Shown here in pieces: positions 12,454-15,735 of a stretch of DNA of 64,000 bases. Source of the stretch: Halobacteria archaeon HArc-gm2 (GTDB taxonomy: Archaea; Halobacteriota; Halobacteria; Halobacteriales; Haloarculaceae). Position 1 is the stretch's first letter; each line of letters begins with the position of its first letter. Below the pieces are notes generated by a model. It was not told the DNA's origin. It was given only the letters and a program-made list of their open reading frames with translations, and ran no database searches. The stretch covers positions 558,001-622,000 of the forward strand of contig JAOPKE010000001.1 in the NCBI GenBank assembly GCA_025517465.1. The letters are read 5' to 3'. A program made the position numbers and the translations under genes.

Positions 12454-13212
12454 ATGCGGAGTTTCGAGGTTTCGATAGACGACGGGACCGCGCGGTCGCT
12501 CGCGATCGAGGCAGACCTCCTCGAGTTCGAGACGGTCGAGTCGTACCTGGCCTGGGTCGTCGAACAGCGGTTCTCGCTGGAGGGGGAAGGGATGCGCTAC
12601 GGCCGTCTCGCTGCATTTGCCAGCGAAGTTCGTCGCGAGCGCTCGCGGGACGTCCGCTCCGACGAATCGACCGCGGACGACGTCGACCTCTCGATCGGCG
12701 GTGCGGAGGACGCCGTCGCCAGGATCGAAGACGAGGAACTCACGAACGTCGTCGAGAGCCTCGCCGACGTAGAGCGCGAACGGGTCGACGCGTTCGCGCG
12801 ACGGGCGGTCGCACAGACGAGCGACAGGCTCGGTGAGCGCGGTTGGACGGCTATCGACTACGATCCCCAGTCGACACGTGAGGAGGGGTTCCCCGGAGAC
12901 GACGTCGCCGACGTCGCGTCCATCGACGTGCCCGGGCACGACGAGGAACTCTGTGATCGACGACGGTGGGCCGTCGGCGCCGCGCTGTGTCTCCTCAGAG
13001 AGCAGACCGAGGCCAAGCGGGGCGACTTCGTCGACGAACTGTACGAGGAGCTTCCCGCCGGGTACGGGAGCGAAGACGCCTGGTGGGGCTGTATCAAGAC
13101 GGGACTTCGTCAGATATCCCGCGTCGAACCGGCCAGAGACGGCGCTCACGTCTGGCGATACAGGACGACGCCGGGTCGGGTGACTCGCATTTCGTTCTCC
13201 GACGACTTCTGA
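12454..13212 (+). CDS. Haloarchaeal hypothetical protein, RHH-like N-terminus, 252 aa
   Basis: No known function recognised. The first ~45 residues (FEVSIDDGTARSLAIEADLL then VESYLAWVVEQRF) resemble the strand-helix-helix layout of haloarchaeal ribbon-helix-helix proteins. The middle is acidic and helical. The last ~90 residues (RRWAVGAALCLLREQTEAK, DFVDELYEELPAGYGSE, AWWGCIKTGLRQI, VWRYRTTPG) look like a compact winged-helix-like domain. I infer a DNA-binding or regulatory protein, with low certainty. Own promoter; no operon partner. Confidence 0.7.
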   Translation: MRSFEVSIDDGTARSLAIEADLLEFETVESYLAWVVEQRFSLEGEGMRYGRLAAFASEVRRERSRDVRSDESTADDVDLSIGGAEDAVARIEDEELTNVVESLADVERERVDAFARRAVAQTSDRLGERGWTAIDYDPQSTREEGFPGDDVADVASIDVPGHDEELCDRRRWAVGAALCLLREQTEAKRGDFVDELYEELPAGYGSEDAWWGCIKTGLRQISRVEPARDGAHVWRYRTTPGRVTRISFSDDF

Positions 13213-13274: not shown

Positions 13275-13320
13275 AGCTGAACGGTTCACGTAATGAGGCG
13301 GGTTACCGAGCGGGGTGGCT

Positions 13321-14205
13321 ATGACGGGGACTGAGACAGACGGACGACTGTTCGAGTGGTATCGGCGGATAATCGGCGAGCCAGACAGTAACGTCGACGT
13401 CTACCTCGGGTTCGCGCTGTTCTTCGGCGCAGTCGGACTCGGACTGGGGGCGTTCGGCGCAGGCGCCGCCGGGCAGTGGGTGGAACTGAGCGATTACGTC
13501 GCGCGCGAGGTGGCCTTCGCGCTCGGCATGCTCGCCGTTCCGACGGCGCTCTCGTCGGTCATCGTGTTGCTCCCGGTCGACCGGCGGGGCCTGGTCGGTG
13601 GCGCTTCGGGTGTCGTCGTCTGCCTCGTCGCTATCGGGCTGTTCACCTACGCATATCCGTACATGTGGGCCGAGGGGAGTGGTCCCCAGTACAGCATTCA
13701 CGTCCTCGCCGTCTACGGCGTGGGGCTGACGGCCGTCCTCGCGTCGACCGGCGCCGCGATGGTTGCGTACCACATCGACCGGGCGAGGCCCGCGCCCGCC
13801 GATTTCGACCCCGAGGAGACCGAGGACGACGCACAGATCAGTGACGACGAGATCCGTCAGGACATCGACGAGGCCATGGCTGACGTCGAACTCACGTGGG
13901 GTGGCGTCGAACGTCACGAGGGGACGGCCCTGACGCTCACGTCCGACGAGAGTGAGTTCGATACCTCCGGTCTGCAGGCGGCCACGACGGAGGTACACAG
14001 CACCGGGGTCGACGAGCAGGTGAGTGGCCTCCGAACGGTCAAGGGCGGCGAACAGACGACCGCTCGCTCGGAGACCACCGTCGACGATCAGACCGATCAG
14101 CTACGCGAGTTACGTCGCCGGCGCAGGGAGGAGGCTTCCTCCAGCGACGACGAGACGTTCCTCGCGCGTCTCCTCGCACGGGTCGCCGCGACGTTCGGAC
14201 GCTAG
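13321..14205 (+). CDS. Four-TM membrane protein with long disordered cytoplasmic tail
   Basis: 294 aa. Start ATG at 13321 (an in-frame GTG at 13315 is possible). Four hydrophobic helices at about residues 25-48, 62-85, 90-112 and 123-150, then ~140 residues rich in Asp, Glu, Thr and Ser, ending in a basic patch (LRRRRREEASS) and an amphipathic helix (FLARLLARVAATF). Family recognised only as a haloarchaeal DUF-type protein. The architecture recalls the Haloferax FtsZ-anchor CdpA as I remember it; this is inference. It sits 95 bp upstream of an actin homologue on the same strand. Confidence 0.8.
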   Translation: MTGTETDGRLFEWYRRIIGEPDSNVDVYLGFALFFGAVGLGLGAFGAGAAGQWVELSDYVAREVAFALGMLAVPTALSSVIVLLPVDRRGLVGGASGVVVCLVAIGLFTYAYPYMWAEGSGPQYSIHVLAVYGVGLTAVLASTGAAMVAYHIDRARPAPADFDPEETEDDAQISDDEIRQDIDEAMADVELTWGGVERHEGTALTLTSDESEFDTSGLQAATTEVHSTGVDEQVSGLRTVKGGEQTTARSETTVDDQTDQLRELRRRRREEASSSDDETFLARLLARVAATFGR

Positions 14206-14260
14206 TCACTCACTAAGATTGTTCATTCGGGAATAATTACTCCATAACATGCACAAACAT

Positions 14261-14271
14261 AGATTTAATAC
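14261..14271 (+). promoter_or_regulatory. TATA box (agatttaatac) of actin-like gene
   Basis: AT-rich 14206-14300 gap with the best box about 35 bp before the ATG at 14301, preceded by an A-rich BRE-like stretch. The actin-like gene can therefore be transcribed independently of the upstream membrane-protein gene. Confidence 0.6.
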
Positions 14272-14300
14272 GACGGGGTTTAATTTTCGACTCTGTAACC

Positions 14301-15371
14301 ATGGCTAAAGGACTTGACGTGGGTACGATGAACATCCTGTCGGCGAAACAGGAGGGTACTGACACCGTGTTCGTCCAGCAACGGAACTCCTTCGTGGAGA
14401 TAGAGTACAGCGACATGGCCGAGCAGATGCTCTCTCGGTCAGACGTCCTTCACATCCGGAAGGACGACGACGTGTACGTCCTCGGGGACGACGCGCTGAA
14501 CTTCGCGAACATCTTCAACCGCGAGACGCGGCGACCGATGTCCCAGGGGATCCTCTCTTCGGACGAGAAGTCGGCGATTCCGATGATGAAGCTCATCATC
14601 GAACAGGTCGTCGGGTCGCCCGACCGGCCCGACGAGAAACTGTACTTCTCCTCGCCCGCGGACCCGATCGATTCCGACCTCAGCACGCTGTACCACCAGA
14701 AGACGATCGAGTCGTTCCTGAACGATATGGGGTACGACGCAGAACCGATCAACGAGGGGATGTCGGTCATCTACTCGGAACTCGCCGACAACGACTTCAC
14801 CGGGCTCGGGATCAGCTTCGGAGCCGGCATGACGAACGTCTGCCTGGCCTACTACGCGGTGCCGGTCATGAAGTTCTCCGTCGCCCGCGGCGGCGACTGG
14901 ATCGACGAGCAGGCGGCCCAGGCGACTGGTACCCAGGTCGACAAGGTCACCTCCATCAAGGAGGACGGCTTCGAACTCGACTTCACGACCGATGTCGGTG
15001 GCGTCGAGGGCGCGCTGTCGATCTACTACGAGAATCTCCTGGACTACGTGATCGAGAAGATCCGAAAGGAGGTCGACGAGGAGGACATCGAAGAAGGCCT
15101 CGACGTCCCGGTCGTCGTCACGGGCGGCACTTCCTCGCCGAACGGGTTCTCGAAGCTGTTCGAACAGCACCTCGAAGACGCCGACATCCCGTTCTCCATC
15201 AGCGACGTCAGGCACGCCGAGGAACCGATGTACAGCGTCTCCCGCGGCGCCCTCGTCGCCGGCCGCTCGGAGGAAGAAGATCAGGACCGTGACACGGCGG
15301 GATCCGCTTCCGAGGACGACGAGAGCGAATCGGAACCTGACGAGGAGATCGAAGCGGCGAGCGACGACTGA
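14301..15371 (+). CDS. Actin-superfamily cytoskeletal protein (salactin/volactin type)
   Basis: 356 aa. Actin-fold nucleotide-binding motifs are visible: phosphate-1 ([12 protein letters not shown], about 5-16), phosphate-2 ([15 protein letters not shown], about 170) and adenosine motif ([13 protein letters not shown], about 270). The segment [24 protein letters not shown] is typical of the haloarchaeal actin homologues described as salactin and volactin, which act in cell growth or shape. The last ~35 residues are an acidic tail. The assignment to the actin family is firm; which orthologue is uncertain. Confidence 0.88.
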
Positions 15372-15384
15372 TACCGGTCGTTTC

Positions 15385-15606
15385 TCAGTCGTCCGCGGTT
15401 CCCGGTCGGTAGTTGGTGACGTCTCTTTTCACGCCGTACTGTCGCGCGTTGAACCGGTCGATAGCGTCTTCCCACGATTCACGCGGCGGTTCCTCGCGAA
15501 CGTGGGACACTGAGACGTCGACGAATCCACACTCCTCGCACCGTCGCGAGACGTTCTCCCCCAGTTCGAACTCCGCCATCGAGCCCCCACATCGTACACA
15601 GCCCAT
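15385..15606 (-). CDS. Small zinc-ribbon protein, 73 aa
   Basis: Start at the ATG at 15606. It opens with CVRC (C3, C6) and continues to RRCEEC (about C24, C27), forming a zinc ribbon, followed by an acidic C-terminus (ESWEDAIDRFNARQYG). The minus-strand box GTTATTACC (15628-15636) lies about 26 bp upstream. Haloarchaeal conserved small protein, function unknown. It converges with the actin-like gene (13-bp gap). Confidence 0.8.
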   Translation of the reverse strand: MGCVRCGGSMAEFELGENVSRRCEECGFVDVSVSHVREEPPRESWEDAIDRFNARQYGVKRDVTNYRPGTADD

Positions 15607-15627
15607 AATTTTCCCCTTCGTTCGGAC

Positions 15628-15636
15628 GGTAATAAC
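15628..15636 (-). promoter_or_regulatory. TATA box of the 73-aa zinc-ribbon gene
   Basis: Minus-strand GTTATTACC centred about 26 bp before the start codon at 15606. Confidence 0.6.
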
Positions 15637-15735
15637 TCTAGCGGCTAGATCGGTACGGTTTCGCCGGCACAAACGTTCTCGATGCGTGGGATCCGGAGAT
15701 CGCGCGACGCCGAAAATGCGTGAGCCGACCCGTCG

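Follow-up and report, generated by a model that had tools for sequence, protein, structure and literature searches.

We propose that the 294-amino-acid membrane protein encoded at positions 13321–14205 (+) of the window (that is, the whole 64,000-nucleotide stretch of the genome of Halobacteria archaeon HArc-gm2 that was analysed) is probably a dedicated membrane partner of volactin, the actin homologue encoded directly downstream, and most likely serves as its anchor. The protein would thereby become a candidate for the attachment of archaeal actin filaments to the membrane, with three conserved blocks of its tail as the named parts.

The gene begins with an ATG at 13321 according to the open-reading-frame call (an in-frame GTG lies 5′ of it, at 13315), and in a profile search its product matches the DUF7139 family (PF23600) over residues 9–155 with 134.9 bits against a curated cut-off of 30 bits. 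Four predicted transmembrane (TM) helices and a 139-residue tail make up the protein, in agreement with the first-pass annotation, which had described a four-TM protein with an acidic tail of ~140 residues upstream of an actin. We call DUF7139 proteins of this volactin-partner type class A, and the class A profile (A1) scores 376.7 bits at the window gene. After 95 bases, the actin gene follows on the same strand (14301–15371, +) and encodes a protein of 356 amino acids with an acidic C-terminal extension. This actin had been placed between salactin and volactin, and only the second name stands: the product matches the volactin family (PF25216) above its cut-off, with 453 bits over positions 1–320 of the 321 in the profile, and reaches 15.8 bits against the salactin model (NF053533), whose curated cut-off is 400. 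These two results rule out salactin, and the true salactin of this genome is encoded elsewhere (603.7 bits). Within the gap, a BRE/TATA-like element (caaacatagatttaatacgac; 14254–14274, +) forms a putative separate archaeal promoter of volactin, and in many haloarchaeal loci a conserved TATA-like element resembling CACATAGATTTATAATCCGTC lies shortly 5′ of the volactin ATG, again inside the gap. The position of this element suggests that haloarchaeal volactin is probably transcribed from a promoter of its own, in which case a fixed DUF7139:volactin stoichiometry would not be implied. Two further genes flank the pair. Directly upstream lies an open reading frame of 252 amino acids and no known family (12454–13212, +), which belongs to a block missing from some congeners (see below) and occurs only in the window genome and the congener G138; a gene for a small zinc-ribbon-like protein (15385–15672, −; weak zinc-ribbon matches) converges on volactin, and a relative of it neighbours volactin in 45 of 80 loci.

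The four TM helices lie at about residues 23–52, 57–83, 88–117 and 122–155, as placed by hydropathy and a single-sequence AlphaFold model of low confidence (mean pLDDT 54) that we used for helix boundaries only; the domain that they form (residues 23–155; 13387–13785, +) is the part held in common with CdpA of Haloferax (see below). As the number of helices is even, the tail is predicted to be cytoplasmic. It holds 35 D/E against 15 K/R residues and had been described as disordered, which proves too simple: across class A, three blocks of the tail reach a mean relative entropy of 2.7–2.9 bits, compared with 2.38 bits for the TM domain and 1.3–2.0 bits for the linkers. Block 1 (residues 175–200; 13843–13920, +; 2.89 bits) is the DDEIRQDIDEAMADVELTWGGVERHE region with its WGGV motif; the pattern [ST]WGG[VI] occurs in 65 of 70 class A proteins and 0 of 43 proteins of the related class B (introduced below), and D181, A185, M186, W193, G194 and G195 are invariant in 21 diverse sequences. 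Block 2 (residues 229–246; 14005–14058, +; 2.79 bits) is the VDEQVSGLRTVKGGEQTT region, with the motif VDxxVxGLxxLKGG. Block 3 (residues 247–270; 14059–14130, +; 2.69 bits) has the consensus DDQTxxLxELR, which the RRRRRR patch follows in the window protein, and is predicted to be helical (pLDDT 80–88), the helix at residues 254–272 being the best-scored part of the AlphaFold model. The final helix (residues 277–293; 14149–14199, +), modelled with low confidence, is less conserved (1.7 bits). A basic patch and an amphipathic helix had been named as the end of the tail, and both are present in the window protein (RRRRRR near residues 264–269; hydrophobic moment of helix 277–293 of 0.78, p = 0.034 versus shuffles), yet neither is general: the hexa-arginine run is not shared widely among relatives, few of which have a significantly amphipathic helix. 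Since conservation in the three blocks equals or exceeds that in the TM domain and is lower in the linkers, the tail, as judged from sequence conservation, follows a pattern of binding motifs on flexible linkers rather than that of a free tail.

We searched for class A (profile A1) and volactin in the same 145 haloarchaeal genomes, in which class A matches form a clean group above 290 bits, the next match scoring 121 bits. Both class A and full-length volactin were found in 86 genomes, neither in 59 (one of these, G060, holds a volactin fragment), and no genome was discordant. Within the nine genera in which only some genomes carry the pair, the two genes are again present or absent together. 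For a second draw we took 170 Haloferacaceae genomes, some of which had been in the first; class A was found in 80 and volactin in 80, and 79 genomes had both; the two genomes with only one of the genes (G228 and G247) are drafts of about 170–180 contigs. Fifty-eight of the genomes new in this draw carry both genes. The genomic association thus appears obligate in haloarchaea, the group covered by the search for volactin without DUF7139. We also observed a genome (G106) in which class A occurs three times, alongside additional copies or fragments of volactin, and two Haloferax genomes (G113 and G163, genus g27) that have neither volactin nor its class A partner; volactin seems to be essential in Haloferax volcanii (PMC10869688).

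Conservation of the gene pair had been proposed as a check, and the pair proves conserved well beyond the window. In 66 of the 80 haloarchaeal loci fetched, class A immediately precedes volactin in the same orientation, 42–173 bases away, and the genes adjoin in 39 of the 58 newly drawn genomes with both. All of the unlinked pairs in the second draw, and 12 of 14 in the first, belong to a single genus (g13), most carriers of which have class A and volactin far apart or on different contigs; genomes of this genus that are without one of the genes are also without the other. In a DHFR tree, which is short and allows only three independent contrasts, one genome without both (G243) branches, with good support, from within carriers that have the genes unlinked. 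Outside haloarchaea, a phylum-wide search returned weaker DUF7139 matches in three other families, from which 30 loci were fetched. In 26 of these, DUF7139 forms a stand-alone membrane gene of roughly 235–315 residues, and in all 26 this gene lies directly upstream of a volactin-family actin (369–459 bits), often overlapping it or sitting within a few bases of it; Pfam confirms both families in the examples scanned. The remaining four loci comprise one without a detectable match and three with DUF7139-like domains in frames of about 600 residues that have no actin neighbour (L204:647–2449, L225:554–2467 and L226:514–2418, all on the − strand). Read from gene order and profile matches, DUF7139 and volactin constitute an ancient two-gene module across the phylum.

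An association of this kind could in principle arise by hitch-hiking (that is, the gain and loss of unrelated genes as one cassette without joint work), and cassette loss of class A and volactin as one block does also happen, because the three congeners G041, G059 and G114 lack the entire block flanked by SBDS and psmA. However, the genes also co-occur where they are unlinked, with the nested loss of both as one instance, and adjacency in 26 of 26 distant loci, together with the strong conservation of the tail, argues for selection; we have therefore set hitch-hiking aside as very improbable and regard a functional link between class A and volactin as near certain. The nature of this link is a separate matter, given that co-occurrence fits a regulator, a sensor or a nucleator equally well. 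In particular, the four-TM protein could be a sensor or regulator that responds to the state or tension of the membrane and controls the timing of volactin polymerisation without bearing load, a proposal that the same genomic evidence fits and for which the three conserved tail blocks could provide a control surface. We consider it unlikely, as searches of Pfam and NCBIfam revealed no domain with a known sensory or enzymatic role and the related universal DUF7139 protein is a structural anchor.

That related protein bears on a further claim of the first-pass annotation, which had likened the window protein to the FtsZ anchor CdpA and suggested a shared role in morphogenesis or division. DUF7139 is carried by nearly all haloarchaea; one widespread type, here class B, has a tail with four Cys. 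We recognised Haloferax by DHFR sequences that share 89–92% identity with that of H. volcanii (PDB 2ith; eight genomes, genus g27), and in 13 Haloferax genomes ~15.5 kb separate the class B gene from ftsZ1 and ~7.5 kb separate it from a cetZ. Genes were called individually in one such region (G112, loci L137 and L138), where class B is the sixth gene from that cetZ, and an AN1-rhomboid gene is present as expected for rho2 (HVO_0727). As CetZ2 is HVO_0745 (PMC10927574), we infer that the universal haloarchaeal class B counts to the position of HVO_0739, which is predicted to be a membrane protein and is transcribed as a monocistronic mRNA of ~1,052 nucleotides (PMC8406309). The class B frame in G112 measures 999 nucleotides. 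We take HVO_0739 to be CdpA, the membrane anchor of FtsZ.

Comparison with this family, also proposed as a check, supports one part of the likeness. The membrane domains of class A and class B are homologous (hhalign 99.4%, E 6.4e-22), so that the resemblance in the four-TM domain holds; membership of the CdpA type is not supported. At the C-terminus of the Haloferax class B protein lies a DUF7140 ribbon with four Cys (PF23601, 75.8 bits). All 43 class B proteins show the four-Cys pattern, whereas none of the 70 class A proteins does; profile searches of Pfam and NCBIfam detected no DUF7140 zinc ribbon in the window protein, and hhalign found no match between class A tails and those of class B or of a third type (class C, below). 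In the tree, class B occupies one side of a branch with support of 99/98 and class A falls outside this CdpA clade. The missing ribbon, the separate clade and the unrelated tail together argue against CdpA orthology of the window protein. The H. volcanii counterpart of class A would lie elsewhere: a Haloferax relative has the order class A, volactin, CetZ, and this order matches HVO_2015 (volactin) and HVO_2013 (CetZ5; PMC10927574), from which HVO_2016, just upstream of volA, would be expected to be the class A orthologue. We found no paper on DUF7139 or HVO_2016 in the open-access literature.

Kinship with the HVO_0739 protein, and a CetZ gene that follows shortly after volactin in Haloferax, also lend some weight to the idea that the protein bridges volactin to FtsZ or CetZ and acts in division or at the septum. 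A third point comes from one non-haloarchaeal family (f15), in which ftsZ stands directly upstream of the pair: in four loci (L205, L206, L221 and L223), ftsZ, DUF7139 and volactin are consecutive on one strand, and ftsZ scored 384–386 bits against a cut-off of 295.2 in the two that were checked. This run of genes may itself be a division and actin operon outside haloarchaea. Among the loci fetched, however, ftsZ adjacency was seen in this family only, the class A tail has no detectable likeness to that of CdpA, and the assembly of volactin filaments does not depend on the division site, the filaments being needed for a timely change of shape from rod to disk (PMC10869688). A bridge between tubulin and actin is thus improbable in our view, and the shared division role suggested by the first-pass annotation is not indicated.

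The same comparisons suggest how the family may have diversified. In a tree of 77 rows that includes the non-haloarchaeal group and contains long branches, haloarchaeal DUF7139 proteins form one side of a branch with support of 100/99, and class A alone receives 78/81. Class A tails can be aligned co-linearly, though with middling probability, with those of the actin partners outside haloarchaea (hhalign, 111 columns; E 1.9e-4, probability 47.5%), whereas class B tails gave no hhalign match to either. On this basis, the simplest reading, in which the order of events is not proven, is that class A may retain the ancestral location and tail, class B (CdpA) perhaps being a haloarchaeal duplicate with a replaced tail. 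Extending this reading, we tentatively suggest, at somewhat less than even odds, that DUF7139 proteins could be archaeal membrane anchors of ancient origin whose first client was an actin of the volactin type, and that a duplicate arising in the haloarchaeal stem left the actin gene, replaced its tail and became the FtsZ anchor CdpA, one scaffold being reused for actin and tubulin. If so, family f15 would still keep ftsZ, the anchor and actin in one gene run. The scenario makes it testable whether a partner of actin gave rise to an anchor of FtsZ, and bears on how the archaeal machineries of division and shape were assembled.

Further members of both families were encountered along the way. 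Class C, the third DUF7139 type, comprises proteins of ~950–1,000 amino acids (L175:6059–9085 (−) in the window genome and L177:5872–8715 (−)), and the one scanned (L177) has the membrane domain and seven DUF1508 repeats. The window genome also encodes a short-tailed DUF7139 copy of 203 amino acids (L120; G000:C16:28984–29433), which falls on the CdpA side of the tree on a long branch. On the actin side, we observed a second, long volactin of 1,183–1,314 amino acids (L176:4531–8475 (−) and L185:6312–9863 (+)), in which a volactin head (390 bits in L176) continues into a predicted coiled coil of ~900 residues, with a TM helix at the C-terminus. Present in about 25 further genomes, mostly of family f3, it looks like an actin that carries its own membrane anchor.

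Returning to the class A protein as a membrane partner and likely anchor of volactin, we envision that its four helices would fix it in the membrane and that its predicted cytoplasmic tail would hold or nucleate volactin through the three conserved blocks, and that the C-terminal helix may contact either membrane or filament; the protein would in this way supply the attachment for filament tips. Such a role fits what has been described in H. volcanii, in which volactin filaments are dynamic and bind the membrane by their tips, never lying adjacent to it along their length, and for which the authors suspect volactin-binding factors that are as yet unknown (PMC10869688). We favour an anchor because the pairing holds without adjacency and reaches other families, because the tail is conserved, because four f15 loci run ftsZ–DUF7139–volactin and because a DUF7139 paralogue with the same membrane domain is an FtsZ anchor. 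Physical contact, tip anchoring or nucleation are what we infer from these lines of evidence taken together; the AlphaFold model, being single-sequence with a mean pLDDT of 54, lends contact no support from a predicted fold or complex.

Among the known systems close to this one is volactin itself (HVO_2015, PF25216), to whose family the neighbouring gene belongs at 453 bits and for which we found no membrane partner described in the open-access literature. Salactin (NF053533) is likewise a haloarchaeal actin, and its filaments are anchored at the cell poles (PMC10746226; PMC10869688), but the genes around it are poorly conserved (PMC10746226), in contrast to the largely fixed surroundings of volactin. 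CdpA resembles the window protein in combining the DUF7139 four-TM domain with a long tail of conserved blocks on variable linkers, and both probably work beside a cytoskeletal filament; it differs in that it is nearly always present in haloarchaea, whereas class A is present only with volactin. SepF and FtsA are membrane anchors of FtsZ. They offer a likeness in function, each being a small protein that ties a cytoskeletal filament to the membrane (PMC8178401). No homology to them was detected, and the protein described here is set apart by its four TM helices and by its presumed client, an actin.
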